This document shows, piece after piece, positions 3,006 to 64,000 of a DNA stretch of 64,000 bases. Under the pieces are notes generated by a model. That model saw only the letters and a list, made by a program, of their open reading frames with translations, was not told the origin of the DNA and made no database searches. Location: contig CM065809.1 in the NCBI GenBank assembly GCA_033398695.1, positions 84,425,644 through 84,489,643 on the forward strand. The letters are read 5' to 3'. Source of the stretch: Orobanche coerulescens (lineage: Eukaryota; Streptophyta; Magnoliopsida; Lamiales; Orobanchaceae). The first letter of the stretch is position 1; each line of letters opens with the position of its first letter. Position numbers and translations under genes: made by a program.

Positions 3006-3007
3006 AG

Positions 3008-3116: not shown

Positions 3117-5071
3117 ATGGATTCATCATTGATCAATAAAGTACTCATGTTCTCTATTAACGAATTTGACGATTGGAGAATTAGGATGGAGGCTTATCTT
3201 GCAGCAATGCACGAAGAGATGATTTTTGTCATACAGGATGGGCCCATAAAGATCATGAAGGTAAATCCAGCCCTAAAAATTGAAGGCCAGGCTCATGCAG
3301 AGATGCTCAAGAAAGAGCGCGAACAATGGAGTTCTAACGAAAGAAAGCGCCCTAACCTCGACAATGTTGCGAAGAATGCATTGTCACTCTTGACAAAGGC
3401 ACGTTCTCTAAGGTAAAGAGCTGCAAATCAGCCAAGGATATCTGGGATAAACTCAAGTTAATTTGTGAGGAAACTGAGCTCCCAAAAGAAAACAAGATTT
3501 CAATATTAACTCAGCAATTTAAATCTTTTGAAATGAAACCAACTGAAACACTTGAGGAACTTGACCTCAGATTTACTGGCATTGTTGGTGAACTTGAAGC
3601 ATTAGACAAGATTTACAACCAAAGGGAGAAAAACCTAAAAAATTTCAGATCTCTCCCTGCCCGATGGGACATTAAGACCACAGCTATGCGTGTGTCGTGC
3701 AATCTTAGTGAAATATCTACTTTTGATCTCTTTTCTGACCTCAAAGCATTTGAGTATGATATAGACAGGAGAGAGAAAGCTGAAGAATCTCCCGCCAGGA
3801 CTATAGCCATAACTGTTGTATCCAAACGAAGACATAGCATGCCGAGCTCATCAAAGCCCACTCATAAAAATGCTGACAGCGACGACGACATCCTGTCGCA
3901 AGACGAAATGGCGCTCCTCATGCATAAGTTCAAGAAGTTTATCAAGCAGTCGGGAAAGACTCCATACAGGCCCAAGCCTGTACACAAGGTAAGTACTGAA
4001 ACTTCTTTTGGTGATGCTAACCTGTGTTATAATTGCAGAAAACTAGGGCATTATGCAAATAAATGTCCTCATCCCAAAGTTCAAAGGTTGCCGGAAGCCG
4101 AGCAACAAGAAAATGATGAAAGAAGACGTGCTTGGAAAAACAAGCTCAAGGCCGTGATTGGTGAATCAGAAGAATCCCCCGCACCATCAAAATCCAAAGA
4201 ATTTCTTCAAGTAGTCACTGACAGTGATTCATCTGATGATGATTTCGAAGATAAAGCCTATATGTGCTTTATAGACAAGGACAGTCCGAAAGATGAAGAT
4301 AGCGATGATGAGGTAAGCTCAACTTCAGCTATTCCCACCAATGCATCTCAGACTTTTGCAAACATGATGAATGAGTTTAAAAACATTCAAATGGCCCATG
4401 AGACGTTGAAAAATGAAAATATACAGCTCCAACTTTCTAATTTAGAGCTGAAAGAAGAAAACGACTTGCTGAAAGTAAATTACAAAAATATGTCTATTGA
4501 TTGTGAAAACATCAAAGTCGAGTATGAAAAACTCATGGAGAGCAATCATCAACTTGCTCATGAACTAAGTGAGACTAAATCTCATAGTGAAAGCAATACA
4601 AATGATTTTGTTCTGCTTCAAGCCAAAGTAAAAACTCTCAAAAAACGAGAAGGAGAACTTGAGACCATTCTGAAATCTTTCGAGAAATCATCTAAAAGAA
4701 TGGAAGAAATTCTAAGCACTGGGAAACATGCTCATGATAAAAGTGGCTTAGGATACAACTCATTTTCCAATAAAGGGAAAACTAGTACTGTGTTCGTGAG
4801 GGGTGTGGAATCCATTCCTGTATCGGAAGAAGTTCAAAGTCATCTGAAGGAACCCGTTGCACCACGAACAGCAAAAGATGCCATACCGCCACCATATTCA
4901 TATTCCAGACAGCGGAATCACCAGCCATTCAGACCTGTAAAGCGCACCCAACAGCATGCTCCCCGAGCATATCAACAGCGCCAACAGCCGTTCAGAAAGA
5001 AGGTTGTATCCAAATATCAAAGGCCCACACGGCAGTACTTTCAGTACAGCACGCCTAGGTATTGGATATAG
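3117..5071 (+). pseudogene. copia gag with CCHC zinc knuckle (SIRE-like copia)
   Basis: Translation from the ATG at 3117 gives a SIRE-like Gag start (FDDWRIRMEAYLAAMHEE). The frame shifts by one base near 3400. It then reads on in another frame through KDIWDKLKLICEETELPKEN to a CCHC nucleocapsid knuckle, CYNCRKLGHYANKC (about 4024-4065). After this come an acidic Ser/Asp-rich stretch and a long coiled-coil-like segment rich in Glu, Lys and Asn (about 4350-4750). A TAG at 5069-5071 stops the frame, although the same frame continues as a basic, Asn/Tyr-rich tail to a second stop near 5402. Gag would assemble the particle and bind genomic RNA. The long coiled-coil Gag fits the SIRE/Maximus lineage. 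Confidence 0.85.
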
Positions 5072-5425
5072 GAGCCGCATTATCCCTCGCGAAAGCTAGT
5101 ATCCTCACAGTATCAACAACAGCTTTGGGAATCCAACTGGAGACCCAGAAGGCAAGCTGTAAGGATGAAGAAAATAGCTCCACCTCCAAGACGGCATTTG
5201 TACTGGAATAATAATAATAACCCTGAATCTTACATGCATAATAATTATCATGATTATAGCAACTACGTACATGCCCCACATAGAAATCACAATTACGGAC
5301 CTAAACCATCCTACAGTAAACCTATTACTGTCAGGAAAATCTGGGTACCTAAAGGCACTAACATCCATGGACCCAACAATCAAAGGGGACCTAAATCTAC
5401 CTAATTTGTCTGCGTACAGGACATT

Positions 5426-8400: not shown

Positions 8401-8624
8401 CAAGTGCAATTGCTATCACGCACAACCCTGTATTGCACTCACGCACCAAGCATATTCACATGAAGCATCACTTCATTCGGAATCATGTTGAGAACAAGGA
8501 TGTTCGGCTGGAAAAAGTTCATACAGATATCCAGTTAGCCGAAATCTTTACCAAACCTCTCGACACAGCAAGATTCTGCATGCTTCGACATGAATTGGGA
8601 TTGCTACAGCCTGACTCCCTGTAA
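5426..8624 (+). pseudogene. copia pol: protease, integrase, reverse transcriptase, RNase H
   Basis: The order is that of Ty1-copia. The protease motif DSGCSQHM is at the start. The gag-pre-integrase block (LWHKRMSDVN) and an integrase core (HMDLYGPV, then NGVAERKNR) follow. Reverse transcriptase contains [11 protein letters not shown] and an intact YVDD at 7695-7706. RNase H ends with STAESELYA and the TKHIHMKHH motif. Breaks: a frameshift and stop near 6500, and an in-frame TAA at 7107-7109. Two catalytic acids are altered: the integrase second Asp position reads RSEMMQF (codon 6221-6223 is GAA), and the RT motif A reads [11 protein letters not shown] with Tyr (TAC, 7440-7442) where Asp is invariant. 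The enzyme set could not copy or integrate DNA as read. Confidence 0.9.
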
Positions 8625-12994: not shown

Positions 12995-13937
12995 TGTTAG
13001 GCTTATTTTTATGCGTTTATTTATCATTATTTTAGATCCATTTTAAGTCTAAATCTGCATAAATGAGCTTTTAATGCACTATTCTTATATGTTTTGCAGG
13101 AAATTAGAGTCCGGAAGCTCGAACGGCGAAAAACGGGCCAAAACGACAATTTTTAGCCTGGGGCCGCGGCACAATGAAAATGAGCCGCGGCACACGCACG
13201 ACACAGCAAGGCGCTGAAAATGATTTTTATGCTTTCTTTAATTCTTTTTGTATTTTTAATTTTAGCATGTCAGGCTAGAACCCTGTTCTAGGATTTTGAT
13301 GAAACCGAGATTTTGAGGAATTAACTTTCGATTTTGCATTATCAATATAATTCCATTTTCTATTGAGTTTTCCCCAATTGTTCTTAATGCTTTCAATTGT
13401 GTGGCCTATAATTGAATTGTTTTAATTACGCAACTCGAATCGGGAGAGGAGAGTTGGTAGGAAAAATTGGTGAGAACCGTTTTATCTTGTGAGATAGGAA
13501 TATACTCATAGGAATTACGTGGCCTGTCTGAAGATTCCGTGCTTTTTGCCTATTGTCGAATTAATTCACCTAGGAATAGAGTGTGTTATTCGCCTTAGAA
13601 AAATCTATTGACCTCGGGAGAGGCGGTAGAGTATTTTAGCAACCTTCGCCTTCAATAAATTGGGAAATCGTTAAATTCATATAATCGAGAGTAATTCGGA
13701 TAAACCGAGGTGGATTCACAATCCTAGATTAATTCCTTATTTGATTTTCTTTCTTCAAACAATCGATTTTACTATTTATTCTTTTTAATTGCACCTCTAA
13801 TTTCGATCGTTCAGATAAAATTAGAATACTCATAAATTGGTAGTTAGTAAGTCAGTCTTCATGGGAACGATATCTTACTTATCACTTTATTACTTGTTTA
13901 CGATAACGTGCACTTGCGTTCACAAAATTCGGCAACA
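12995..13937 (+). repeat. Athila copy 1, 5' LTR with internal deletion
   Basis: This LTR is 943 bp, against 1280 bp for the 3' LTR. The two align from TGTTAGG onward, but near 13200-13225 the 5' copy jumps from the block after CACACGCACGAC straight to TTTTTATGCTTTC. It lacks about 337 bp that span 22148-22505 in the 3' LTR. The missing part holds the TATA box (22381-22390) and two of the three palindrome pairs. The remaining palindrome pair has cores at 13164 and 13185. Confidence 0.93.
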
Positions 13938-13943
13938 AGTTTT

Positions 13944-13961
13944 TGGCGCCGTTGCCGGGGA
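13944..13961 (+). other. primer-binding site, tRNA-Asp(GUC)
   Basis: TGGCGCCGTTGCCGGGGA is the exact complement of the 3' end of plant tRNA-Asp including CCA. This primer is typical of Athila and related gypsy elements. It lies six bases after the LTR. Confidence 0.92.
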
Positions 13962-14073
13962 CTGATTATTTTACTAATATCGATTTCAGTATTTCTAGTC
14001 TTAATTTGAACATTATTTTATTTTTGTGTAATTTTATTTATTTGTTTTCCTTTCAGGAATTTCTGGTTAGTGC

Positions 14074-16601
14074 ATGAGAAAATTCGGTAATGAAGGCCTA
14101 CTGCCTTTGGATACTGAACTCGAGCGCACTCTTCGGAAAAACAAGAAGGAAAAGCGCAAGCTACCAGCAAAAGACACCATGGCCGATAACACGGAAAACC
14201 ACGGAGGAGACAACCCTATTCAGCAAGCTCAACTGGCATTAGCACTCCGTGATTATGCAATGCCACAAATCAATGTAAACTTTTCGGGGATTCGGCGTCC
14301 AACTATCCAAGCGAACAACTTCGAGATTAAGCCGACTATTATTCAGATGGTGCAAGCAAGCCAATTTTGTGGACTGGCAAACGATGATCCCAATGCACAC
14401 ATCGCTTCATTTCTCGAGATTTGTGACACCTTCAAGAATAATGGTGTCACCGATGATGCTATTCGTCTGCGGCTTTTCCCTTTCTCTCTAAGGGACAAAG
14501 CCAAATTTTAGTTGAATTCACTACCACCGGGCTCTATCACGACTTGGAAGGAATTAGCACAAGCCTTCCTGGCTAAGTTCTTTCCACCATCAAAGACAGC
14601 GAGACTTAGGAACGAGATAACCACCTTCGGGCAATTTGATATGGAGTCGCTTCACGAAGCTTGGGAGCGATACAAGGATTTATTACGGAGATGCCCACAC
14701 CATGGCTTACCGGATTGGCTACAAATCCAACCTTTTATAATGGATTGAGTGCTTCTACACGCACTCTTGTTGATGCAGCCGCTGGAGGAGCGTTAATGGT
14801 AAAGACTATGGCGGAAGCTCATTCTCTATTGGAGGCAACGGCTGCAAATGTTTATCAGTGGCCTTCCGAACAAGTAATCCCGAAGCGAGTTATGGGAGTT
14901 TCCGACAACGATCCGATCTCTACACTATCAGCACAAGTCGCAGCGCTGACTCGGCAATTGCAAGCTTTTTCATATGCTCCTACCTCCGTTACCACGGAAT
15001 CATGTAATTGGTGCAACGGTTCTCATCCTAGCGTGGAGTGCCAAGTCGGAAATCCTTTCGAGCAACCTCCAATGGAACAGGCTCAGTTTGTGGGGAACGG
15101 GAACCGGCAAAATAATTCGTATTCCAACACATACAATCAAGGGTGGCGAAATCACCCAAATTTTTCATGGAAGATCGGGCAAGCTTTAAAACCTCCACAA
15201 GCTCAATTTGCGCAGCCCCCACAGTAGCCCCCTCAACTACCAAAAGTATCCTTGGAAGATGCTCTTGCTCAAATGGTGGCTAATACGAGCCAATTCATGA
15301 CCCGCACTGAGACTACCTTACAAAATTATTCCGCCTCCATCCGAAACTTGGAAGTACAAATGGGGCAGATTGCAAGTCTATTGTCCTCTAGACCTCAAGG
15401 TGTATTACCCAGCGCCACCGAAATGAACCCCAGGGAAAACGTGCAAGCAATCGAGCTACGAAGTGGAAAGGAGCTGAAAGTGCAGCCTACCAACAACAAG
15501 GACAAAATCGACTATAGTGAGAAAGAAAAGGACGAGGCGCCCAAGCCAAAGGCAGTGTCGACTACTCATCCCACTCCACAAATTCCATTCCCACAACGTC
15601 TGCAAAAGCAAAAATTGGATAAGCAATTCTCTAAGTTTCTTGACGTCTTCAAGAAACTACATATCAACATTCCATTTGCCAACGCCTTGGAACAGATGCC
15701 GAGTTATGTGAAGTTCATGAAAGAAATCTTATCAAACAAAAGAAAGCTCGAGGAGTATGAGACAGTAGCATTGACGGAGGAGTGCAGTGCTATTCTACAG
15801 AAGAAGCTCCCACCTAAATTGAGGGATCCCGGAAGCTTTACTATTCCATGCACCATTGGGAATTCGTCCTTTGAAAGAGCTTTATGTGATCTCGGAGCCA
15901 GCATAAACCTTATGCCTCTTTCTATTTTTAAGAAGCTGGATATTGGGGAAGCCAAGCCGACGCCGGTCTCTTTGCAATTAGCAGATAGATCTATCAAATA
16001 TCCGAGGGGAGTAATAGAGGACGTCTTAGTTAAGGTCGATAAATTCATCTTTCCGGCCGATTTCATTGTGCTCGACATGGAGGAGGACGATGACATCCCA
16101 ATTATCTTGGGAAGACCATTTTTGGCAACCGGCCGAACTTTGATCGATGTGGAAAAAGGAAAGCTTACTCTACGAGTTCAAGAGGAGCAAGTAACGTTCA
16201 ATATCTTTCGATCCTTAAAATATCCTAGTGATGCTGAAAATTGTTTCCAAGTTGACGTCATTAACTCGTGTGTAAGTAGAGCCTTTCGAGAGAATTATCC
16301 ATTCGATCCACTGGAGTCCATTTTAATTGGGTCTGCTTCCGAATTAAATTCAGATCATGTAGCCTATGTACGACACATGAATGCTTCCCCACCATTTTTC
16401 ATTCATCGACCATGTGAGGAGCTCGGAAGCTCACCAACTCGACCCATCCCATCAATCGAGAAACCCCCAAAGCTGGAGCTCAAGCAGCTGCCGACTCATT
16501 TAAAATATGCATTTTTGGGACCCGGCGATTCCTTTCCAGTCATTCTTTCGGCCACTTTAGCGGGGGATCAAGAGGAGAAATTATTGAGGGTTCTGAGGTA
16601 G
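14074..16601 (+). pseudogene. Athila gag-protease region, copy 1
   Basis: The ATG at 14074 opens MRKFGNEGLLPLDTELERTL, the Athila Gag start. The capsid block (FEIKPTIIQMVQAS; LRLFPFSLRDKA) follows, then a CNWCNGSHPSVEC zinc-binding patch (about 15004-15042). The aspartic protease motif CDLGASINLMP is near 15885-15920, and ILGRPFLATGR follows. Lesions relative to copy 2: TAG at 14509-14511 (Trp there), a one-base frameshift near 14730, TAG at 15225-15227 (Gln there) and TAG at 16599-16601 (Glu there). Gag-PR would build and mature the particle. This copy cannot make it intact. Confidence 0.92.
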
Positions 16602-19372
16602 CACAAATCTGCCCTTGGATGGTCTATTGCGGATATTAAGGGAATCAGCCCGTCCATTTGCATGCACAAAATTTTGATGGAGGAAGACTACAAACCATCT
16701 GTGGAGCATCAATGCCGTTTAAATCCAAATATGAAAGAGGTGGTAAAAGTCGAGGTTTTAAAACTCCTCGACGCAGGTATGATCTTTCCTATTTCTGATA
16801 GTAAGTGGGTAAGTCCGGTCCAAGTTGTGTCCAAGAAGGGTGGGATAACGGTTATTTAAAATGATAATAATGAATTAATTCCCACTAGGATTGTCACGGG
16901 GTGGCGTATGTGCATAATTATAGGAAATTAAATAAAGCCACTAGAAAAGACCATTTCCCTTTACCTTTTATTGATCAAATGTTAGATAGATTAGCCGGAC
17001 ACGATTTCTATTGCTTTCTTGATGGTTATTCTGGGTATAATCAGATTTATATAGCCCCAGAAGACCAAGAAAAGACGATGTTTACATGTCCTTATGGCAT
17101 TTTCGCTTATAGGCGCATGCCGTTTGGTTTATGTAATGCGCCGGCCACTTTTCAACAGTGTATGATGGCTATTTTTTCTGACATGGTAGAGCATTGCATT
17201 GAGATTTTTATGGATGATTTTTCTGTTTTCGGTGATTCGTTTGATTTGTGTTTGCAGAATTTGCAGAAAGTCCTAAAAAGATGCGAAGTAACAAATTTGG
17301 TCTTGAACTGGGAGAAGTGCCATTTTATGGTCCAGGAGGGCATTGTACTTGTCCACTGAATATCCTCACATGGGGTTGAAGTCGACAGGGTAAAAATTGA
17401 AACAATTGAGAAGATGCCTCTGCCTACTTCGGTAAAAGGGATAAGGAGCTTTTTGAGACACGCCGGTTTTTACCGCCGGTTTATTAAGGATTTTTCAAAG
17501 ATCACGAAGCCGTTGTGCAATTTTCTCATGAAGGATGTTCCGTTTAATTTTGACGAGTCGTGTACAGAAAGTTTCGATCTATTGAAGAAAGCTCTAAGCA
17601 CCGCTCCGGTAATAGTCGCTCCAGACTGGGACCTTCCGTTCGAGTTGATGTGTGATGCTAGTGATTTTGCCATTGGGGCTGTTTTAGGACAGAGGCGAGG
17701 GAAAGTGTTCCACGTCGTGTATTATGCAAGACGAACTCTTGACGACGCCCAAAGAAATTATGCCACAACGGAAAAGGAATTGCTAGCGGTAATCTTTGCT
17801 TTTGATAAATTTCGGGCGTATTTGTTGGGGACGAAAGTAGTGGTGTGGACCGACCATTCGGCAATCAAATACCTTTTGGAGAAGAAGGATGCTAAACCAA
17901 TTTTGATTAGGTGGGTGCTTCTCCTTCAAGAATTCAACTTATAAATTCGCGACAAAAAGGGGACTGAGAATGTTATTGCCGATCACCTTTCACGGTTAGA
18001 GAGTCCCCTTGAGAAGGGAGAAAGTCATCCACAAATCATGGAAACCTTTCCCGATGAACAACTCTACAAGTTGGGTTCGCAACACGCGCCTTGGTATGCT
18101 GATCTAGTGAACTATTTGGCGAGCAAAACAATTCCGAATGACCTCTCACGCCATCAGAAGAAGAAGCTGATTTCAGACGCTAAGTATTACTTGTGGGACG
18201 ATCCTTTTCTGTTTAAAAGATGCCTTGATCAAATCATTCGCAGATGTGTTTTGGATGAGGAAATCCACAGTGTGCTGAATCATTGTCATGCATCACCCTA
18301 CGGTGGGCATTTTAGCGGAAATAGAACAGTGGCAAAGGTCTTACAATCGGGGTTCTATTGGCCGTCATTATTCAAAGATGCTCACTCCTTTGTGTCCACG
18401 TGTGATCGGTGTCAACGGACGGGAAACATCTCAAAACGACATGAAATGCCGTTGAACACCATACTTGAGGTTGAATTGTTCGACGTATAGGGGATCGACT
18501 TCATGGGTCCATTTCCTCCATCAAATAAGAATCTCTATATTCTGGTAGCAGTGGACTACGTCTCAAAGTGGGTCGAAGCGGTGGCACTACCAACGAATGG
18601 GTCCAATGTCGTAATCAAATTTATAAAAAAATATATTTTCACGCATTTTGGGACTCCACGTGCTATTGTCAGTTATGGTGGTTCACACTTCGATAACAAA
18701 TTCCTTGATGCGGTCTTGAGAAAATACGGAGTCACTCATCGTGTTGCTACAGCCTACCATCCCCAGACAAGCGGTCAAGTCGAGATATCAAATCGAGAGC
18801 TAAAGTGAATCTTAGAAAAAACAGTCAGCTCGTCTCGAAAAGACTGGTCCTTTAAACTCGATGATGTACTTTGGGCATACCGTACTGCGTATAAAACACC
18901 TATCGGGACGTCGCCTTACAGATTGGTTTATGGTAAAAGTTGTCATTTGCCCGTAGAGATGGAACATCGTTCTTACTGGTCGATGAAGAAATTAAATTTT
19001 GATCTTAAATCTACTGGTGAAAAGCGTTGTTTGCAGCTGAATGAGCTGGAGGAAATTGGCCACGATGCGTACGAAAATGCGAAGCTTTATAAGGAGCGGA
19101 CAAAGATTTGGCATGATAAGCACATCACACAGCGAGAGTTCGTCCCGGGTCAAGAGGTGTTGTTGTTTAATTCTCGCTTAAGGTTATTCCCTGGGGAATT
19201 GCGTTCACAATGGTCGGGACCATTTACAGTAGTTCAAGTATTTCCACACGGAGCAGTTGAAGTACAAAAAGATGACCGTAAATTTAAAGTTAATGGGAAG
19301 CGGTTGAAGGCCTACTTGGGTAATCCAATAGACGCGCAGAAGACGAGCGTCGTCTTATCCACCGCCGGATGA
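16602..19372 (+). pseudogene. Athila RT-RNase H-integrase region, copy 1
   Basis: Reverse transcriptase shows SDSKWVSPVQVV, then FLDGYSGYNQ, MPFGLCNAPATFQ and the FMDD catalytic motif (17207-17218). RNase H has [15 protein letters not shown] and [16 protein letters not shown]. Integrase has the HHCC finger ([13 protein letters not shown] to CDRCQ) and [10 protein letters not shown]. Lesions: TAA at 16857-16859, a one-base deletion near 16913, TGA at 17357-17359, TAA at 17942-17944, TAG at 18488-18490 and TGA at 18806-18808. The second integrase catalytic Asp is Tyr here (IVSYGGSHF), whereas copy 2 has ISDGGSHF. The pol domains are otherwise collinear with copy 2 to the shared C-terminus near 19372. 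Confidence 0.92.
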
Positions 19373-19580
19373 ATGCTAGAAAAGTCCGGCTGAAGACTAT
19401 AAACTTAGCGCTTCTCGGGAGGCAACCCGAGTATTAGTTGTAGATTTTTGTTTTTCAGTGTTTTCTTGCATTTTAGAATTTTTATTTTTTGTCATTTTTG
19501 CTTTGATATGCTTATCTCTCGCGTTCTAAGTGTTTTCCTTTGAAAATTCTGTGCAAAAATCACCCCAGGGGAAAATTCAG
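19373..19580 (+). other. post-pol leader with gene-junction box
   Basis: This non-coding sequence directly after pol contains CTCGGGAGGCAACCCGAG, an inverted-repeat-like box present in copy 2 as CTCGGGAGGCAACCCAAG. The box is also seen as a relic on the minus strand near 52231-52252. Confidence 0.6.
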
Positions 19581-19581
19581 C

Positions 19582-19920
19582 AATGGGCCGCAGCACAATG
19601 ATAGTGAGCCGCGGCACACACAAGTTGACACAAAAAGGCCAACCGAACTGTACTCTGTGCCGCGGCACGACCTTACTAAGTCGCGGCACACCTGGTCCCT
19701 GAACCGCGGCACATATGCACTGATCCGCGGCACGCCAATTGCCCCAGAAATGCCCAAGAAGCTGAACTCCGTTCCGCGGCACGGAACAAATGAGCCGCGG
19801 CACACTTACAAATGAGCCGCGGCACGCGTATATTGAGCCGCGGCACGCAGAAACATAAAAGAAACGCCCAGGCAGGCTGTACTCTGGGCCGCGGCTCACT
19901 TAAGCTGTGCCGCGACCCCT
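19582..19920 (+). repeat. palindrome ladder: 12 GTGCCGCGGCAC-like sites
   Basis: Core CCGCGG (or a one-base variant) starts at 19588, 19609, 19660, 19681, 19704, 19725, 19774, 19795, 19817, 19838, 19889 and 19910. The steps are 21, 51, 21, 23, 21, 49, 21, 22, 21, 51 and 21 bp, so the sites fall into groups of 2-4-4-2. The full consensus GAGCCGCGGCACAC includes the perfect 12-bp palindrome GTGCCGCGGCAC at 19657-19668. The spacers are non-repetitive. The same ladder with almost the same steps is found in copy 2 at 63676-64000. Confidence 0.95.
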
Positions 19921-19929
19921 GTTGCGAAT

Positions 19930-20500
19930 TTGGAACGCCCAGCATTCTTTCATATACTTGATCGGCCGACACCAGGTAAGTTTTCTTCCCTTTCTTCGCA
20001 CAGCGCTCGGCCATATCCTATTCACACTTCTTCTTCTTACCTTCTTCCATACAAAGCAAGGTAATTCTCAACTCTTAATCTTAATTGCTACATGGTTTGA
20101 AAAGTAAGGTATTGTCCTTCATTCAATATTGGATATGTTTAGTTCTACCAAGGTTGAGTTGGGATATGAAATTATTGATTGATTATTGATGGTATTTGTT
20201 GATTATGAATGAATTGTTGATGTTATTTGTCGTTTATCATGACTATCGATTTATGTTGTTATTTTTGGGGATTGAGTTAAACCATTGTCAGTTTTATTCT
20301 TCATTTAAACCCATGCATGCTAAGTGTTTGTTAAAATGCGCCAATGAAATTTTTTGAGCCAAACGTTTTTAAAACTATATGCAACGAATTATTTTATCGG
20401 ATTACATTGTACCCCAACCCTTACATCATGTTTAAACTTGAGAGCTCATCCTTAATTTCCTCTTTGATGATGCAAGCTCATTCATTCACGTTCCGCATGG
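19930..20500 (+). other. Athila post-pol non-coding stretch
   Basis: This stretch is A/T-rich with short pyrimidine-rich runs. I see no coding signal or repeat beyond the ladder upstream. Confidence 0.6.
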
Positions 20501-20508
20501 TGTAGTCG

Positions 20509-20694
20509 ATGAGAGAGCAGGCACGCCGGGCCAATCGACTTGAGGAGAGGCACTTGGCGGCGAGGGATGCGTACCATCAGGAATACCTTTCTGCGTGGAC
20601 AAGCCATATTCTGCACCCGGACGGGCCATTCATTCCACCAGTTAGGCCATCCACACCACCCTTCTCGCCGGACGAGGCCGGCACCAGTTCATGA
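20509..20694 (+). CDS. small ORF in the Athila 3' region, unrecognised
   Basis: A 61-codon frame starts with ATG at 20509. It encodes a basic, Arg/Glu-rich helix-like N-terminus and a Pro-rich end (PFIPPVRPSTPPFSPDEAG). Athila elements often carry a degenerate third ORF between pol and the 3' LTR, and this could be a scrap of one. It could also be chance. No domain is recognisable. Confidence 0.25.
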   Translation: MREQARRANRLEERHLAARDAYHQEYLSAWTSHILHPDGPFIPPVRPSTPPFSPDEAGTSS

Positions 20695-20771
20695 GCGGAC
20701 ATTAGGGGAGTACTTAACCTTTTCTTTTATTGCATATTATTATCTGTGTCCATTGAGGTCAATGTACGTCC

Positions 20772-20785
20772 TAAGTTTGGGGGGG
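20772..20785 (+). other. internal polypurine-like tract
   Basis: TAAGTTTGGGGGGG resembles the true 3' polypurine tract of the element (AAGTTTGGGGG at 21933-21943). It lies about 1.17 kb upstream of the 3' LTR and may prime an additional plus-strand start. Confidence 0.5.
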
Positions 20786-20789
20786 TTTA

Positions 20790-21182
20790 CTTTAAGTTGC
20801 TTTTACTTATTCGTTGACATTTTTCGTTATTTTTGACGCTAGCCTTGCTTGTCTTGTTTTTATTTGCATTTATGAATTTTGCGTGCTTCCTTGTGTAAAA
20901 TTGGTGATATGATACTAATTTCTTTTTGAAGAAACGGTTGAGTATTTGGTCGAGTTGCAGTCAGCGATATCTGTTTCCGTTGAGTATTCATCTAGGTCTG
21001 AAATTTTTCGTTATTGTAAAAATTTTAGCGTATAAGAAAGGAGACATATGTATTTTCAAATCGCCGTCTATACGTTTGGTTATACTTTTTGCGTAGCTAG
21101 TCGTCCAGTAACATGAGTCTTGTTGGCACTCAAATTGAGTTTAGAGTCGGACAGTCTTTGCCAAAAAGTCGAGATATTATTT
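20790..21182 (+). other. Athila post-pol non-coding stretch
   Basis: No open frame or repeat that I can support. It is T-rich sequence between the internal purine tract and the tandem block. Confidence 0.55.
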
Positions 21183-21480
21183 GTTCTATGATGGGAAGTC
21201 TAGTAACCGGGGGTATTCACGTGACCCGTTGTTTACTTTCGCGTAAAACGACAACCCTTAATAGACTAATGGTTTAGAGATATTGCCTTTGCCGATGACG
21301 GGAAGCCTAGTAACCGGGGGTATTCACGTGACCCGTTGTTTACTCTCGCGTAAAACAGCAACCTTGAATCAGACGTGCGGGAATAGCTATTCGAGTTTTT
21401 TCACCACTGCAGAGGGGAACTTAGTAACTAGAAGCATCCATGTGCCCCATGAGTGTCTTTTACGTCAAACGGTTCCCAAA
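21183..21480 (+). repeat. degenerate tandem repeat of about 105-115 bp
   Basis: Two clear copies share AGTAACCGGGGGTATTCACG and the following ACCCGTTGTTTACT block (starting near 21199 and 21307). A third, weaker copy begins near 21421 (TAGTAACTAGAAGCATCCAT). It is part of the Athila 3' non-coding region. Confidence 0.75.
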
Positions 21481-21932
21481 TACATGAGAATGGAAATCCA
21501 CCCTAGGATTATCCCGATGAAACATCCGGAGAGCCGGAACCTAGTGGTTAACTCGAATCATTTTATTGATCATATATAAGGGAATGCTGTCCGAGGATTA
21601 TTTTTGACGATGAAACTCTTGAAATTTTTGCCACTAAACTGTGGGACTGGGCGAGTTGGCTTGTATTATCTAACCCTTCATATTGGCGGTCGGTTAAATT
21701 CACGCTTGTTAATCTTTGAGCTTGATTTTCTTCATGAACGATTGATTAGCACTAAAAATGGTTACTTTGTGGAATCAGTATCCTAGATGTGACTCACTAT
21801 TACGATACTTGTATTATTCTTTGAGATTTGCAGGGTAGTATTGATTAAGTTGAGCACTATGGATTTGCACGATTATTCACGATACTTCTTATTTGAAATT
21901 GATTTTTTTTGCTTGAGGACAAGCAAAGGCTC
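21481..21932 (+). other. Athila 3' non-coding stretch before the PPT
   Basis: No coding signal is visible. It ends with GCTTGAGGACAAGCAAAGG, a conserved lead-in to the polypurine tract in this lineage. Confidence 0.55.
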
Positions 21933-21943
21933 AAGTTTGGGGG
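21933..21943 (+). other. 3' polypurine tract of Athila copy 1
   Basis: AAGTTTGGGGG followed by TATT directly precedes the 3' LTR start at 21948. This is the expected plus-strand primer position. Confidence 0.8.
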
Positions 21944-21947
21944 TATT

Positions 21948-23227
21948 TGTTAGGCGTATTTTTATGCGTTTATTTATCATTATTTTATATCCATTTTAAG
22001 TCTAAATCTGCATAAATGAGCTTTTAATGCACTATTCTTATATGATTTGCAGGAAATTGGAGTCCGGAAGCTCAAATGGCGAAAAACGGGCCAAAACGAC
22101 ATTTTTGGCACAGGGCGCGGCCTGATGAAGGCGAGCCGCGGCACACGCACGACTGACAAGGTCTTGAACCAAGCTATCAGAAAGTGCGCACGTTGGCCGA
22201 GCCGCGGCCCATGAATAAAAATGCGCCCAGGTATAAGGCGCTGATCATTAAGGGCCGCGGCACATACTTACTGAGCCGCGGCCCATGGGGCGGTTTTGAT
22301 GTATTTGCCGCGTTTCTGGGCCATTTTTGGAGCCTGTTCTCGACCTAATCCACAGATGCGTTTTGGAGACGACTGATGGTTATAAATAGGGAGTGAAGGT
22401 CTGAAAAGAAGGGAATCGAATCATCGAGGAATCAAAGAGAAGAAGAAAAACATCGAGAAGCAGAGCGCGGAAGCTAGAGAACGGAGGAATCCGAGTTCTT
22501 CGACTGCGTTTGATTTTTATGCTTTCTTTAATTCTTTTTATATTTTTAATTTCTAGCATGTTAGGCTAGAACCCTGTTCTAGGATTTTGATGAAACTGAG
22601 GTTTTGATGAATTAACTTTCGATTTTACATTATCAATATAATTCCCTTTTCTATTGAGTTTTCCCCAATTGTTCTTAATTCTTTCAATTGTGTGGCCTAT
22701 AATTGAATTGTTTTAATTACGCAACTCGAATCGGGAGAGGAGAGTTGGTAGGAAAAATTGGTGAGAACCGTTTTATCTTGTGAGATAGGAATATACTCAT
22801 AGGAATTATGTGGCCTGTCTGAAGATTCCGTGCTTTTTGCCTATTGTCGAATTAATTCATCTAGGAATAGAGTGTGTTATTCGCCTTAGAAAAATCTATT
22901 GACCTCTGGAGAGGCGGTAGAGTATTTTAGCAACCTTCGCTTTCAATAAATTGGGAAATCATTAAATCATATAATCGAGAGTAATTCGGATAAACCGAGG
23001 TGGATTCACAATCCTAGATTAATTCCTTATTTGATTTTCTTTCTTCAAACAATCGATTTTACTATTTATTCTTTTTAATTACACCTACAATTTCGATCGT
23101 TCAGATAAAATTAGAATACTCATAAATTGGTAGTTAGTAAGTCAATCTTCCTGGGAACGATATCTTACTTATCACTTTATTACTTATTTACGATAACGTG
23201 CACTTGCTTTCACAAAATTCGGCAACA
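21948..23227 (+). repeat. Athila copy 1, 3' LTR (full length)
   Basis: This 1280-bp LTR runs from TGTTAGG to GGCAACA. It has palindrome cores near 22115, 22136, 22202, 22255 and 22276, a TATAAATAGG box at 22381-22390, and a transcribed region that aligns with the 5' LTR. Position 22202 probably had a partner about 21 bp upstream, now decayed (GTGCGCACG near 22184). Confidence 0.95.
22381..22390 (+). promoter_or_regulatory. TATA box of the Athila LTR
   Basis: TATAAATAGG lies about 100 bp downstream of the LTR palindrome pairs. The same box occurs in copy 2 at 57139-57148. The 5' LTR of copy 1 has lost it. Confidence 0.75.
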
Positions 23228-23375: not shown

Positions 23376-24498
23376 GAAAGTTTTGACAGAATGTTTTGAT
23401 AATATGCCAATCCAGCATACAGCAGACAACTGTATCGAAAAGCTGATCAAAAGTATCAACCTGTATCGAAGACTTCTCGTAGTCCCAGCATACAGTGAAT
23501 CAATCATACAGCAAAGGAGTCTCATAAAGACTAAGTATGGAAGCTGTCTCGAAACGACAATACAGCTATCATTCCATACAGTATCCAAACAGGACAAGAA
23601 GGAATATTTGTTATTCGCTAAAGTCAAAGTCCCGTTTAAGAAGATATATTTAAATACTAAAGGATAAAGTATTTAAATATTAAGCCGTCACAGATCTTCA
23701 ATCAAGCGCAAAATCCGGATCGTGTTTTATTCAAACGCATCATCCCGTTGGAATGAACTTTTGCTCAACGGATATATTCAAGAAGGCTATATATATCTAC
23801 AGAGTTTGAAGATCAAATACTGACGAACATACGCACGAAATCAAACAAAGTTATCATCATATACATCTGAGCAAACATATCTCCCAAACTATACTGCTAT
23901 TCTGAAAGAAGAGATATACAATTGCTCAAACCGTGAACAACACATTATCAGCTAAAAGCTCAGCAAGTCAACGCTGTTGTTCAATCATTGTTCTATCCTT
24001 GAACAAAAGCCATAAGCCCTGTGTGGACTGAGAAACCTTGCTATTCCTAAACTGTGTGTGACAGACTTGCATTGAAAAGATGAAGCTTCGGAACTGTGTG
24101 TGAAGAAGCCAGTCAAGTGAAACCTTAAACCAATCTGTGTGAACGGTTGGAGGATAAGATCATTATATCAATCTGTGTGAACGATATATTGATTAGCTTT
24201 GATTATAAATATGTAGTTGTGTACGTAGTATTTATAATAAATATTTTCACTCCTGTGTGGAGGACCAGTGGACGTAGAGGGGTTTACCTCGAACTATTTT
24301 AATTACCGTGTCATTTACCTTCTGCATTTACTGTTTTAATATTTGTGATTATCTTTAAGTATACAATTCATATCTAGTTGTTGTATTTACAGTAACTTAC
24401 TTTAACAAGACTTCCGCTATGCACTCAGATTTGAAAACTGTACAGCTTGTTGTTTAAAACACTTTCCAAGATGTATCCTGTATACTTAGTGGCCAACA
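23376..24498 (+). repeat. 3' LTR of the SIRE-like copia
   Basis: It aligns with 1897-3005 from GAAAGTTTTGACAG to CCAACA, with scattered substitutions and one replaced block near 23770-23805. It lacks the first 24 or so bases (TGTTGGGATAACA onward) of the 5' LTR. The purine tract abuts the homologous part directly. The TATA box is at 24204-24211. Confidence 0.9.
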
Positions 24499-24503
24499 AA
24501 CAT

Positions 24504-56704: not shown

Positions 56705-58029
56705 TGTTAGGCGTATTTTTATACGCTTATTCATCATTATTTTGTAGTGTTTTGGTGAGTGAAATCATCTAAATGAGCTTTTAATGCCTTAATTTTGTAT
56801 GATTGACAGGAAATTGAAGTCCGGGAGCTAAAACGAGGCAAAACGGGCGAAGACGGCAAAACTGGACTCTCAGCCGCGGCACAAGGAATCTGAGCCGCGG
56901 CACCGGAAGACACCATCCGAAGGGCAGAGTAAGATGTACTCTGTGCCGCGGCACAGCCCAGGTGAGCCGCGGCACAGAAGAATGTATTTACGCCCAGGCA
57001 TTCAGCTTTTCGCGATGTGTCGCGGCACAGGTTTAGTGAGCACACTTAGCGGGTTTGGTAGGTCTGCGCGATTTTTGGGCCGTTTCGAAGCCAGTTTTCG
57101 ACCAATTAATACGGACGCGAATTATGGAGGTGCTGATCTATAAATAGGGCTTGAGACCCTAATTAAATCATCTTGGAATCATTGAATCTAATACCTTGGA
57201 GAGCATTAGCTTGGAGACGGCAGAAGAGGAGGAAAGCAGAAGAATTCAAGGGCAGAAGGCGGAAGCTGAAGAACGGAGGAATCCACGCTTCATCTGCGTT
57301 TGAATTTTATGCTTTCGTTTATTTATTCTGTATTTTCAGTTTTTAGTATGTCAGGCTAAAGCCCTAATCTAGGGTTTTGATGAAACCTTTGTTTTGACGA
57401 ATTGATTGAGATTATCCAATTTATTACCTTTTTATTGAGTTTTCCCAATTATGTTTAATGCTTGCAATTATCTGGCCAATAGTTGTATTGATTTAATCAT
57501 TCACTTCGAATCGGGAGAGGAGATTTGGTGAGGAACTATTGGTGAGGACCGTTTTATTCTGTGAGATAGGAATATACTCATAGAAACTACGTGGCCTTTA
57601 GGAGATTTCATGCTTTTTGCCTATCGACAAGATAATTCACCTAGGGATAGAGTGCGTTAGTCGCCGTTAGATAAATCTATGGACCTCGGGAGAGGCGGTA
57701 GAATATATTAGCAATCTCCGCCTTCAATAAATTGGGAAAATTATTTATTACGGATAATCGAAAGTAAATTCGGATAAACTAAGGTGGATTCATAACCCTA
57801 GACTTATTCATCATTTGATTCCTTTTATTCAAGCTATCGTTTTCTGCTTAGTCTTTTATTAGTTTTTTTTAGTTATTAATCACAAAACCCATATTCGATT
57901 GTTCAGATAAAATTGGAATACGAAAACGTCGGTAGTTAGAGATTCAATCCTCGTGGGAACGATACTCTACTTATCACTTTATTACTTGTAAACGATGACG
58001 TGCACTTGCGTGTAGGATATATCGCAACA
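56705..58029 (+). repeat. Athila copy 2, 5' LTR
   Basis: 1325 bp from TGTTAGG to CGCAACA. Palindrome cores start at 56874, 56895, 56946, 56967 and 57020. The sixth site, expected at 57041, reads TGAGCACAC, as if the six-base CCGCGG core had been removed exactly. TATAAATAGG is at 57139-57148. Confidence 0.95.
57139..57148 (+). promoter_or_regulatory. TATA box of Athila copy 2
   Basis: TATAAATAGG, the same box as in copy 1's 3' LTR, about 100 bp downstream of the palindrome pairs. Confidence 0.75.
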
Positions 58030-58035
58030 AGTTTT

Positions 58036-58053
58036 TGGCACCGTTGCCGGGGA
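58036..58053 (+). other. primer-binding site, tRNA-Asp (one mismatch)
   Basis: TGGCACCGTTGCCGGGGA matches the tRNA-Asp 3' end at 17 of 18 positions. The G-to-A change at the fifth base fits CpG decay. Confidence 0.9.
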
Positions 58054-58177
58054 TTGAAATTTTTCTAATATCGATTTAAGTATTTCCAGTCTTAATTTGA
58101 ACGTTTTATTTTTTATTTTTATTTTTGTATTTAATTTCGTTTACTTGTTTTTCCTTTCAGGACCTTTCGTGTAGTGC

Positions 58178-60438
58178 ATGAGAAGACTCGGTAACGAAGG
58201 CCTACTACCTTTGGACACCGAGCTCGAGCGCACTCTAAGAAGGAACAAAAAGGAGAAAAGAGAGTTGCAGACGACGGTCAACATGGCCGAGAATATTGAA
58301 ATCCAAGGAGGAGACAACCAAGTGCGGCAAGTTCAACCGGAACTAGCTCTTCGGGATTATGCCATGCCGAAGGTCAGCGCTAATTTTTCGGGAATTCGGC
58401 GTCCCACTATCCAAGCTAATAACTTTGAGATCAAGCCCGCCATTATTCAGATGGTGCAGGCGAGCCCATTCTGTGGACTGCCGAAGGACGACCCGAATGC
58501 CCATATCGCTTCTTACCTTGAGATATGCGACACGTTCAAGACTAATGGCGTCACCGACGATGCCATCCGATTGAGGCTTTTCCCTTTCTCTTTGAGGGAT
58601 AAAGCAAAGTTTTGGTTAAATTCCTTACCGCCGGGGTCGATTACAACATGGGAGAGGTTAGTGCAAGCCTTCCTTGCAAAATTTTTCCCACCAGCTAAGA
58701 CGGCGCGGTTGCGAAACGAAATAACCACTTTTGCCCAGTACGATATGGAATCGCTCTACGAGGCGTGGGAGCGATATAAAGAATTGCTACGAAGATGCCC
58801 TCATCACGGCATTCCTGATTGGCTTCAGCTTCATACGTTTTATGGTGGTTTGAGTGCTTCTACACGCACTTTAGTGGATGCGGCCTCTGGTGGGACATTC
58901 ATGGGAAAATCTATGGCCGAGGCTCACGTGCTTTTGGAAGATATGACCGAAAACGCATACCAATGGCCATCGGAAAGATTGACACCGAAGAGAGTTATGG
59001 AAGTTTCAAGCAATAACCCGATTTCCACCTTGTCAGCTCAAGTCGCCGCTTTGACACAACAGCTCCAGGCATTTTCGCACGCACCAGCCCCCGTTACCAT
59101 TGAGACATGCAATTGGTGTAACGGATCACACTCGAGCGCGGAATGTCAAGTTGGAAATCCGTTCGAGCAACATCAGATGGAGCAAGCTCAATTCGTGGCC
59201 AATGGAAATCGACAAAGCAATTTTTACCCCAGCACTTTTAATCAAGGGTGGAGGAATCAACAAAATTTTCCATGGAGAAATGGGCAAGCTATGAAGCCTC
59301 CACAACCTCACTTCGTGCAACCCCCACAGCAGCCCCCTCAATCACCAAAGGTATCCTTGGAAGATGCTCTTGCTCAATTGGCGGCGAACACAAGCCAATT
59401 CATGACCCGCACCGAGACGACCCTCCAAAATCATTCGACCTCCATCCGAAATCTAGAAACACAAATGGGGCAGATTGCTAATTTATTGTCCTCTCGGTCT
59501 CAAGGTGCAGCCCCCAACGCAGCCGAAGTGAAACCCAAGGAAAATGTGCAAGCGATCGAATTACGAAGCGGAAAGGAGTTGAAAGGGCAGCCTATTAATG
59601 ACAAAGAGCAGCCGATCGAGCAGAACGAGAAGGAAAAGGATGAGACGCCTAAGCCAAAGGAAGTATCGACTACTCAGCCCACTCCTCAAATTCCATTCCC
59701 ACAGCGTTTTCAAAAGCAAAAACTGGACAAGCAGTTTTCAAAATTCCTCGACGTCTTCAAGAAATTGCACATAAACATTCCGTTCGCCGACGCATTGGAA
59801 CAGATGCCGAGTTACGTCAAGTTCATGAAAGAGATCTTATCCAATAAACGAAAGCTCGAGGAATATGAGACGGTCGCTTTAACGGAAGAGTGCAGCGCTA
59901 TTTTACAAAAGAAACTCCCACCTAAATTGAGAGATCCGGGAAGTTTCACCATCCCTTGCATCATTGGAAATTCATCTTTTGAAAGAGCCCTATGCGATCT
60001 CGGGGCCAGTATAAATCTTATGCCCCTTTCGATTTTTAAAAGTCGGAGATTGGGAAGCCAAGCGGCAGATCTCTCTGATTGGCCGATAGATCCATCAAAT
60101 ATCCGAGGGGTGTGATAGAGGACGTTTTAGTCAAAGTGGATAAGTTCATCTTTTCGGCCGATTTCATCGTACTTGACATGGAAGAAGACCAAGATATTCC
60201 AATTATTTTGGGAAGACCATTTTTGGCAACAGGCCGAACGTTGATTGATGTGGAAAAGGGAAAGCTGACTTTGCGTGTTCAAGAGGAACAAGTAACATTC
60301 AATATTTTTCGATCCGTAAAATATCCAAGTGACGCTGAAAATTGCTTCCAAGTTGACGTCATTGATTCGTGCGTGAGTAGAACTTTTCGAGAAAATTATC
60401 CACCCGATCCATTGGAGTCCGTTTTGATTGACATTTAG
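58178..60438 (+). pseudogene. Athila gag-protease region, copy 2
   Basis: Open from the ATG at 58178 for about 620 codons: GNEGLLPLDTELERTL, FEIKPAIIQMVQASPFCGLP, LNSLPPGSITTWE, CNWCNGSHSSAEC and the protease motif CDLGASINLMPLSIF (about 60000-60040). Small deletions at 60040-60085 then shift the frame to a stop at 60113-60115. The protease-distal part resumes as MADRSIKYPRGVIEDVLVKV with ILGRPFLATGR to a TAG at 60436-60438. Apart from these lesions Gag is complete, and it gives the reference against which copy 1's mutations can be read. Confidence 0.93.
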
Positions 60439-60473
60439 AACCAAATGGAGAGCATGCCGCCTACGTACGACAC

Positions 60474-63465
60474 ATGGATGCTTCCCCGCCAATTTTTATT
60501 CGTAAACCATTCGAGGAGCTAGGAAGTTCACTAACTCGACCAACCCCATCGATTGAAAAACCGCCAAAATTGGAACTCAAAAAGCTGCCACCTCATTTGA
60601 AATATGCATTCCTGGGGCCCGACAACTCCCTTCCACTTATTCTCTCGGCCACTTTAGCAGGAGATCAAGAGGCAAAATTATTAAGAGTTTTGAGGGAGTA
60701 CAAATCTGCTCTTGGATGGTCTATTGCGGATATCAAGGGGATCAGCCCATCGATTTGCATGCACAAGATTTTCATGGAGGAAGACTACAAACCATCCGTG
60801 GAGCATCAACGTCGGCTGAATCCTAACATGAAGGAGGTGGTAAAAGTCGAGGTTTTAAAACTCCTCGGCAGTATGATCTTTCCAATTTCTGATAGTAAGT
60901 GGGTAAGTCCGGTTCAAGTTGTGTCGAAAAAGGGTGGGATAACAGTTGTTCAAAACGATAATAATGAATTAATTCCCACCAGGATTGTTACGGGGTGGCG
61001 TATGTGCATAGATTATAGGAAATTAAATAAGGCCACTAGAAAAGATCATTTTCCCTTGCCTTTTATTGATCAGATGTTAGATAGATTAGCCGGACACGAT
61101 TTCTATTGCTTTCTCGATGGTTATTCGGGGTATAATCAGATTTACATAGCCCCCGAAGACCAAGAGAAAACGACGTTTACATGTCCTTACAGCATTTTCG
61201 CTTATAGGCGCATGCCTTTTGGATTATGTAATGCGCCGGCTACTTTTCAACGGTGTATGATGGCTATTTTTTCTGACATGGTAGAGCAATGTATTGAGAT
61301 TTTTATGGATGATTTTTCTGTTTTTGGAGATTCATTTGACATTTGTTTGGAAAATTTGCAGAAAGTCTTGCGAAGATGCGAAGAGACCAATTTAGTCTTG
61401 AATTGGGAGAAGTGTCATTTTATGGTGCAGGAGGGCATTGTGCTTGGCCATCGAATATCCTCACATGAAATTGAAGTCGACCGAGCGAAAATTGAGACAA
61501 TTGAGAGGATGCCTCCGCCCACGTCGGTCAAGGGGATTAGGAGTTTTTTGGGACATGCCGGTTTCTATCGCCGATTTATTAAGGATTTTTCAAAGATCAC
61601 GAAGCCGCTGTGCAATTTACTCATGAAAGATGTCCCATTTACTTTCGACGAGTCTTGTAAAGAAAGTTTCGAGTTGCTGAAGAAAGCTCTAAGCACGGCA
61701 CCGGTGATAGTCGCTCCGGATTGGGACCTTCCGTTCGAACTAATGTGCGATGCTAGCGACTTTGCCATTGGGGCATTTTGGGCGAGGACGAGGGAAGGTG
61801 TTTCATGTCATATACTATGCGAGCCGAACGCTCGATGACGCCCAAATAAATTATGCCACAACGGAGAAGGAATTGTTGGCGGTGATCTTTGCATTTGATA
61901 AATTTCGGGCGTATCTACTAGGAACGAAAGTGATAGTGTGGACCGATCATTCGGCGATAAAATACCTTTTGGAGAAGAAGGATGCCAAACCAAGGTTGAT
62001 TCGGTGGGTGCTACTCCTTCAAGAATTCAACTTGGAGATTCGGGACAAGAAAGGGACAGAAAATGTTATAGCCGATCACCTTTCACGATTAGAGAGTTCC
62101 CTCGAGAAGGAAGAAAGTCAGCCAAAAATTATAGAAACCTTCCCCGACGAGCAGCTCTACAAGTTGGATTCAACACATGCGCCTTGGTATGCTGATCTAG
62201 TGAACTACTTAGCAAGTAAAACAATTCCGAACGACCTCTCACGTCATCAAAAGAAGAAGCTAATCTCGGACGCTAAGTATTATTTGTGGGACGATCCTTT
62301 TCTTTTCAAGCGATGCCCCGATCAAATTATCCGTAGATGCATTCCGGATGAGGAAATCCACAGTGTGCTGAACCATTGCCATGCATCGCCCTACGGTGGA
62401 CACTTTAGTGGGAATAGAACAGCAGCGAAGGTCTTACATTCGGGATTTTATTGGCCGTCCTTATTCAAAGATGCTCACTCCTTTGTGTCTACATGTGATC
62501 GGTGTCAACGGACAGGAAACATCTCAAGACGACACGAAATGCCGCTGAACACCATACTTGAAGTCGAATTATTTGATGTATGGGGGATCGACTTCATGGG
62601 TCCATTTCCCCCATCAAACAAGAATCTCTACATTTTGGTGGCCGTGGATTATGTCTCAAAATGGGTTGAAGCGGTGGCACTACCTACGAATGGGTCCAAT
62701 GTCGTAATCAAGTTTATTAAACAACATATCTTCTCACGCTTTGGGACTCCACGTGCTATTATAAGTGATGGTGGGTCACACTTCGACAACAAATTTCTTG
62801 ATGCGGTTTTGAGAAAATACGGAGTCACTCATCGTGTTGCCACAGCATACCATCCGCAAATGAGTGGTCAAGTCGAGATATCAAATCGAGAGCTGAAGTG
62901 GATTCTAGAAAAGACAGTCAGCTCGTCTCGAAAAGATTGGGCATTTAAACTCGATGATGCACTTTGGGCGTACCGGACTGCATATAAAACACCTATCGGA
63001 ATGTCGCCTTACAGATTGGTCTATGGAAAAGGTTGCCATCTACCCGTAGAGATGGAACACCGTGCTTACTGGGCGATAAAGAAACTAAACTTTGATCTAA
63101 AATCCGCTGGGGAAAAGCGTTGTTTGCAGCTGAACGAGTTGGAAGAAATTCGCCACAACTCATACGAAAATGCAAAACTGTATAAGGAGCGGACAAAAAT
63201 TTGGCATGATAAGCACATCACGCAGAGAGAATTTGTCCCGGGTCAAGAGGTGTTGCTATTCAACTCACGCTTAAAGTTATTTCCTGGGAAATTGCGTTCA
63301 CGATGGTCGGGACCGTTCACCGTAGTTCAAGTGTTTCCACATGGTGCAGTAGAAGTTCAAAGAGATGGCCGAAAATTCAAAGTTAATGGACAACGGTTGA
63401 AGGCATACTTGGGAAATCCGATAGACACGCAGAAAACGAGCGTCACCTTATCCACCGCCGGATGA
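60474..63465 (+). pseudogene. Athila RT-RNase H-integrase region, copy 2
   Basis: RT (GWRMCIDYRKLNKATRKDHF, MPFGLCNAPATFQRC, FMDD) runs open from 60474 to a frameshift near 61775. There [11 protein letters not shown] is followed by FWARTREG instead of VLGQRRGK. RNase H and integrase then run open for about 560 codons ([61 protein letters not shown]) to a TGA at 63463-63465. All three integrase acids are present. A 3-base loss gives LLGSMIF where copy 1 has LLDAGMIF. One frameshift in RNase H is the main pol lesion. Confidence 0.93.
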
Positions 63466-63666
63466 ATGCGAGAAAAGTCCGGCTGAAGACTATAAACTTA
63501 GCGCTCCTCGGGAGGCAACCCAAGTATTAGTTGTAGATTCTTTGTTGTTTGCTTGCATTTTTAGAGTCTCTTTTTGTTTTCTCTCTTCTTTGATCCATCC
63601 TTCCCTCTCGTCTTAATGTTTTCGGGTAAAAATTTCTGTCCAGGAATCAGCAAAGGGGAGAAATTC
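63466..63666 (+). other. post-pol leader, copy 2
   Basis: Contains the conserved CTCGGGAGGCAACCCAAG box. It is non-coding and collinear with 19373-19580 of copy 1. Confidence 0.65.
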
Positions 63667-63669
63667 AAT

Positions 63670-64000
63670 GATGGGCCGCGGCACAGTCCAGGTGAGCCGC
63701 GGCACACACCAGCTGAGGAAAAATGGCCGATCAAACTGTACCCTGTGCCGCGGCATGATCTTATTGAGCCGCGGCACACCAGGTCGCTGAGCCGCGGCAC
63801 CCTATAACTGAGCCGCGGCACACTAAATGATCAAGAAACGCCAGGCGCACATGCTTTGTCTTTGCGGCATACTAAGGCTGAGCCGCGGCACACTAACACA
63901 CTGAGCCGCGGCATACGAAATCTGAGCCGCGGAACCCGACGACATAACAAAACGTCCCAGTCCGACTGTACTTTGGGCCGCGGCTCACTTATATTGTGCC
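63670..64000 (+). repeat. palindrome ladder, copy 2: 12 sites visible
   Basis: Cores start at 63676, 63697, 63748, 63769, 63792, 63813, 63862, 63883, 63906, 63927, 63978 and 63999 (the last is cut by the window edge). Steps are 21, 51, 21, 23, 21, 49, 21, 23, 21, 51 and 21, differing from copy 1 at one step by one base. Confidence 0.95.

Follow-up and report, generated by a model that had tools for sequence, protein, structure and literature searches.

Paired palindromic sites behind pol and upstream of the TATA box in an Athila-like retrotransposon family of Orobanche coerulescens: two putative binding arrays for a host protein

The window (the whole analysed stretch of 64,000 nucleotides of Orobanche coerulescens DNA) carries two LTR retrotransposons, elements A and B, each with a ladder of short palindromic sites behind pol:

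12995..23227, forward strand: element A, an Athila-like Ty3/gypsy element with GCTAG target duplications and LTRs at 12995-13937 and 21948-23227
19585..19918, forward strand: post-pol ladder of element A, twelve sites that make up six 21-bp pairs and fall into three diverged units, each about 115 bp long
19648..19653 and 19877..19882, forward strand: CTGTAC, a conserved accessory piece found 9 bp ahead of site 3 of the ladder and again ahead of site 11
21933..21947, forward strand: polypurine-rich tract of element A, preceding the 3' LTR
56705..64000, forward strand: element B, of the family of element A, with target duplication GAAAC (3' copy in L107, the DNA past the window end); it runs past the window end
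63673..64000, forward strand: post-pol ladder of element B, interrupted by the window end, with the remainder in L107

The two elements are 82% identical over 6.7 kb and thus belong to one family, and the Pfam order in element B (gag, RT, RNase H, integrase) is that of Ty3/gypsy. The primer-site type is TTGGCGCCGTTGCC, which we take to be the Athila type; the name Athila-like rests on this type and on an earlier sequence-only reading of the DNA, not on an RT/integrase tree. The LTR pairs show few differences (20 of 716 positions for element A in the part from 13221 on, and 18 of 196 in its U3 part; 14 of 1326 for element B), suggesting that both insertions are fairly recent. The 3.65-Gb genome assembly holds 1,347 pol ends and 9,415 tract-plus-LTR starts of the family. 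Among the best 120 of 7,946 pol relatives, those with a name were plants, and the closest full-length one was 75% identical.

Several observations concern the surroundings of the family. Element A is nested between repeats that are 94.4% identical (1897-3006 and 23376-24499), flank a copia-like coding stretch (3533-8624) and are likely the LTRs of a surrounding copia-like element; the LTRs and linkers of the latter were checked for CG palindromes and none was repeated. Element A has a second polypurine-like tract (AAGTTTGGGGGGG, window 20770-20800) between the ladder and the 3' LTR, and an additional linker tract has been reported for Athila4 and Calypso in the accessible part of PMC2829016. 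The ladder patterns found no ladder in viral contigs, and none of the 11 pattern matches there was a pol relative. Two contigs from bacterial assemblies (Solirubrobacter and Geminicoccus) are 99.6% identical to each other over 9.0 kb and encode a 62% pol relative; these contigs are probably plant contamination, and no CCGCGG was found in them.

The twelve-site ladder claimed in the sequence-only reading was re-found in element A with all its steps. The 12-mers begin at 19585, 19606, 19657, 19678, 19701, 19722, 19771, 19792, 19814, 19835, 19886 and 19907, giving the steps 21-51-21-23-21-49-21-22-21-51-21. Matches to GTGCCGCGGCAC with at most 3 mismatches number 40 in the window against 7.42 expected, a count that none of 100 shuffles reached. 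A second ladder had also been reported and is present in element B, although it starts at 63673 rather than 63676; its seventh site is decayed and L107 completes it. The eighth step is most commonly 23 in the family and 22 in element A, so that the copy of element A is the deviant one. The 2-4-4-2 layout described for the ladder is there, and can alternatively be read, from the alignment, as a tandem array of three diverged units, each about 115 bp long and holding two pairs. Tandem Repeats Finder listed only 21-bp stretches of at most 3.5 copies in the region, since the 115-bp units are too diverged.

The usual form of the site is G[A/T/G]GCCGCGGCAC, and the strict palindrome therefore covers only the inner 8 bp and the outer G..C. 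The conserved footprint, approximately T-G-n-GCCGCGGC-n-C-(A), has near dyad symmetry and a length of about 13 bp, the dyad site being 12-14 bp (about TGnGCCGCGGCnCA). The accessory CTGTAC precedes the second pair in each 115-bp unit, and 9 bp ahead of sites 3, 7 and 11 it was detected in 45, 49 and 51 of 70 copies, respectively. It also precedes sites in more divergent arrays (L103, L148, L151, L152, L153 and L154) and in 16 of 40 U3 regions. CTGTAC contains GTAC, the core bound by SBP/SPL factors, and may be a second, co-operating binding site.

Two other descriptions of the ladder were set aside. It does not stand out as a CpG island, as G+C is raised (0.596 in the ladder of element A) but CpG observed/expected is not unusual (1.09 vs 0.91-1.24 in the rest). 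Nor does it look like coding sequence: the open frames resemble chance, the site register shifts at the steps of 23, 49 and 22, and comparison of one 91-aa frame with a protein database produced 1 candidate and no match at E <= 10.

We analysed core and spacer conservation in a sample selected by the pol end and not by the motif, comprising 70 of 100 listed pol ends (1,347 in the genome). At least 8 site matches (at most 2 core mismatches) were detected in 69 of the 70 loci, the exception (L078) having two. For the alignment, L078 and the truncated copy of element B were removed and the copy of element A was added, resulting in 70 sequences. The diversity of the 8-bp cores was 0.066 against 0.302 in the spacers, so cores vary 4-5 times less; the stretches before and after the ladder gave 0.151 and 0.223, and the pol end 0.039. 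Transversion diversity followed the same order in the ladder and its flanks (core 0.022, spacer 0.152, before 0.075, after 0.112). Gaps cannot mislead in the 15 of 72 copies that have the identical step vector, where the core value was 0.068, the spacers gave 0.336 (9-bp), 0.266 (11-bp) and 0.223 (long), and the stretches upstream and downstream 0.126 and 0.281. A minor allele in at least 4 copies was seen in 17 of 96 core columns, 138 of 191 spacer columns, 59 of 165 columns upstream of the ladder and 169 of 320 downstream of it. The family alignment thus bears out the earlier claim that cores are kept while spacers differ, which holds for the two window copies as well (84 of 91 core bases identical vs 113 of 190 spacer bases). 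CpGs had been expected to decay fastest, and those of the cores are retained between A and B in 20 of 21 cases, compared to 146 of 232 in gag-pol.

Most core changes in the family (136 of 192) are C>T or G>A, the excess expected from CpG decay after insertion. Ungapped perfect sites number 600 of 761, with another 79 gapped, and the outer four bases keep site-specific letters at their own positions (diversity 0.052-0.081). Parsimony on a tree built from the flanks gave 2.20 changes per site in the cores, 2.29 in the pre-ladder flank, 3.04 in the stretch behind and 5.8-7.3 in the spacers. The cores thus change like the pre-ladder flank, and part of the contrast is due to fast spacers: it reflects moderate constraint on CpG-rich cores together with unusually fast spacers. 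Identical 9-bp spacers occur at different array positions in 9 cases (null mean 0.8, maximum 5), including cases between ladder and U3 and with another family, so the fast spacers come at least partly from exchange.

The same sites recur in the LTRs, which the sequence-only reading had not mentioned; the window sites lie at 13161-13193, 22112-22284 and 56871-57045:

13161..13193, forward strand: U3 remnant in the internally deleted 5' LTR of element A, two sites left
22112..22284, forward strand: U3 array in the 3' LTR of element A, four sites with at most 3 mismatches plus degenerate remnants
22381..22388, forward strand: TATAAATA in the 3' LTR of element A, 96 bp after the last U3 site
56871..57045, forward strand: U3 array in the 5' LTR of element B, five sites and a sixth with a 6-bp internal deletion
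57139..57146, forward strand: TATAAATA, the TATA box, in the 5' LTR of element B

The 3' LTR of element B, in L107, has all six U3 sites with steps 21-51-21-53-21. In its 5' LTR (56703-57045), the internal deletion took exactly 6 bp of the core from one palindrome.

For the U3 we used 40 of the first 44 listed LTR starts of contig C1 (9,415 in the genome), selected without use of the motif, by the tract and LTR start. At least one site is present in every one of the 40 LTRs and 21 have exactly six, the usual steps 21-51-21-53-21 making three pairs. TATAAATA is present in 36 LTRs, 30 of which have the end of the last site 95-97 bp upstream of it. In two LTRs (L119 and L142) whole pair units have been lost from the array, yet the gap to the TATA box is still 95-96 bp. 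Diversity in 42 sequences (the 40 plus two LTRs of the window elements) was 0.087 in the cores, 0.409 in the spacers, 0.329 between array and TATA box and 0.098 in the TATA box itself, i.e., the U3 cores and the TATA box are conserved to about the same degree. Another set of nine LTRs, for six of which the motif had been the way of finding them, agrees with this sample when the recruiting pairs are masked (core 0.083, spacer 0.387).

The fixed 21-bp step had been taken as a sign of selection, and as evidence by itself this argument is dropped. With both blocks intact, the within-pair step was kept in 313 of 331 cases (0.946) compared to 2638 of 2924 (0.902) in matched control stretches, which is barely better; 23-bp steps were kept at 0.944 (control 0.887) and long steps at 0.705 (control 0.714), and looser spacing tests agree. 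Retention within the family is thus near the control, and the fixed step is no independent proof of selection. In divergent arrays (L103-L106, and L148-L154, the latter chosen because one or more 21-bp pairs occur in them) most within-pair steps are 21, exceptions being 17, 18, 20 and 22, and the between-pair steps (21-24, 43-44 and 47-53) are more variable. Genome-wide, the strand-wise pairs number 82,209 at step 21 and 1,877 at step 22 (44 to 1), fully palindromic pairs being counted on both strands; the reversed-pattern control gave 0 for both.

We detected further ladders in distant elements. One of them (L103, G000:C1:326600-336500) has twelve sites with steps 21-50-21-24-20-51-21-23-21-53-21, and when its 3-kb precursor locus (L004) was compared with pieces of elements A and B by blastn (E <= 1e-8), the ladder was the only matching part. 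Against the ladder of element A, its cores are identical at 89 of 96 positions, and its spacers at 104 of 168 (62%) vs 64% in shuffled spacers. Among the four distant-ladder copies L103-L106, diversity was 0.124 in the cores (a value inflated by deleted sites), 0.216 in the spacers and 0.07-0.10 in the flanks. L104 has a gag piece 32% identical to that of element B and, ahead of its ladder, a primer site like those of A and B. L103 and L105 have LTR pairs of 1.85-1.93 kb, and the primer site of L103 is of a different type. A common stretch of 1.4 kb around the ladder is 88% identical between L103 and L104; it lies in elements with other LTRs, and the module therefore seems to have moved between elements. 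No relative of the gag or pol pieces of the window was found in L103, L105 and L106, where the array looks like it was captured by a different, apparently non-autonomous element.

We suggest, with a probability of about 0.6 on the sequence evidence, that the Athila-like retrotransposon has two homotypic cis-regulatory arrays, the ladder being one of them, that bind a host protein. Each dyad site would be bound as duplex DNA, likely by a dimer, and the building block would be two sites 21 bp, or two helical turns, apart, a spacing that places the bound proteins on the same side of the DNA, where they could cooperate. The three U3 pairs, located about 100-270 bp upstream of the TATA box, may represent the enhancer of the element, and the six post-pol pairs another one, which would act over a distance or on a so far unseen start. 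Pair units were probably swapped among the positions of an array, between the ladder and the U3, and across families, via recombination or template switching, and such exchange would let the spacers turn over while the cores are kept. Protein binding to duplex DNA is favoured by the dyad form of the site, the two-turn pairs, the repeats upstream of the LTR TATA box and cores as conserved as that box.

This protein-binding reading has to be weighed against RNA structure, which the sequence-only reading had offered as another option. The paired palindromes of both arrays, situated in the 3' part of the genomic RNA, would then form GC-rich hairpins for dimerisation, packaging or export, or serve as a small-RNA source. 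The ladder of element A does fold better than its shuffles (-140.2 kcal/mol, z -4.59; 0 of 100 as stable), and in maize Sireviruses small RNAs concentrate at palindrome clusters according to the accessible parts of PMC10760457 and PMC5311732. However, a compensating change in the pair partner accompanies only 4 of 182 core changes, the other 178 creating a mismatch, in a comparison of low power where most changes look like post-insertion decay; site position 2 varies and position 11 is mostly A, leaving the outer pair mostly unpaired, and the U3 array stays at a fixed distance from the TATA box. We consider the RNA element unlikely. A neutral origin appears about equally unlikely: the ladder would be a post-pol minisatellite with units of about 115 bp, homogenised by slippage and exchange, in which core conservation is functionless concerted evolution. 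The 115-bp unit structure, the entire pair units missing from the U3 arrays of L119 and L142 and the spacers common to different array positions are all consistent with it, and post-pol tandem arrays are common in Retand elements in the available part of PMC11963269. Against it, frequent conversion between sites would erase the position-specific outer letters, the U3 cores match the TATA box in conservation, and the cores outlast the spacers between distant ladders.

The ladder could also be the upstream activating array of an internal promoter, serving an env-like or accessory gene between pol and the 3' LTR. Its location equals that of the Sirevirus linker motifs upstream of env (PMC2829016, accessible part), and a splice-donor-like AGGTAAG occurs about 55 bp after the ladder of element A. 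Within 150 bp behind the ladder, however, AGGTA[AT]G was found in 19 of 70 copies and TATAWAW in 3 of 70 vs 2.9 expected; a TATA promoter at this place was rejected for lack of enrichment. Between ladder and 3' LTR of element A the longest listed frame lying fully inside has 98 aa, and a 61-aa frame (20509-20694) gave no Pfam match, so we regard the internal promoter as quite improbable. Concerning the protein itself, ERF and LBD are other factors with GC-rich sites and equally possible binders as CAMTA/SR1, whose binding via CGCG boxes would be a special case of the array reading giving a calcium/stress response. The suggestion that CAMTA factors bind here stands in so far as CCGCGG satisfies the VCGCGB consensus of the CAMTA/SR1 CGCG box (PMC4890006, seen in part), but the conserved near-dyad footprint of about 13 bp is about twice as long as the 6-bp box requires and the sites form paired arrays, and this identity of the binder seems to us rather improbable.

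The claim that no such array had been described stands in part: no Athila palindrome array was found among the listed hits in the searched, mostly open-access literature, so that an earlier mention is possible, but a closely similar arrangement has been published for Sireviruses (PMC2829016, accessible part). Like Retand (PMC11963269, available part), the present family appears to have tandem repeats in a long post-pol stretch of a Ty3/gypsy element; unlike in Retand, conservation here lies in a short palindrome, which is found again in the U3. Maize Sirevirus LTR palindrome clusters are described, in the accessible parts of PMC10760457 and PMC5311732, as small-RNA hot spots with high sequence variability and predicted secondary structure. 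They resemble the present arrays in having conserved palindromes within a highly variable stretch, this variability paralleling the fast spacers here, and differ in superfamily and motif.

The conserved 13-bp paired dyad, with its U3 set at a fixed TATA distance, provides a specific probe for the host factor. The roughly 82,000 strand-wise pairs per genome could, speculatively, titrate or redistribute a host regulator. A broader hypothesis, which we hold as possible yet doubtful, is that the 21-bp dyad pair is a mobile cis-regulatory cassette common to many LTR-retrotransposon families of the genome, in U3 and post-pol, including families whose flanking DNA cannot be aligned to element A and an element that has other LTRs together with a ladder region. 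It would offer tens of thousands of platforms for one cooperative host protein, and Sireviruses and the present family, from two distant superfamilies, would both have ended up with CCG/CGG palindrome arrays at these two locations.

Among known systems, the RM boxes of Sireviruses (Bousios et al. 2010, PMC2829016) come closest; in the part of the paper accessible to us, they are palindromes located upstream of the LTR TATA box and again between pol and env, form predicted CpG islands in their clusters, and are called Sirevirus-specific against a Ty1/copia comparison set. The present arrays share with them (same source, same part) the many CGG/CCG-triplet palindromes, the clustering upstream of the LTR TATA box and in the post-pol linker, and the diverged flanks. 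At least eight palindrome copies define an RM array, and the present elements have twelve behind pol plus up to six per LTR. The differences, as far as the accessible description goes (PMC2829016), are the superfamily (Ty3/gypsy here, Ty1/copia there), the core signature (everted CCG-CGG here vs CGG-CCG), the fixed 21-bp pairing, absent from that part of the description, and possibly the linker copies, which accompany an env gene in Sireviruses and in element A lie in a linker where no env-sized frame was seen. Taken together, the same two-place architecture in Ty3/gypsy suggests that the control of plant retrotransposons is convergent or shared, and by analogy the arrays would work like Sirevirus RM boxes without being members of them, with a Ty3/gypsy host element, an everted core and an added 21-bp pairing.
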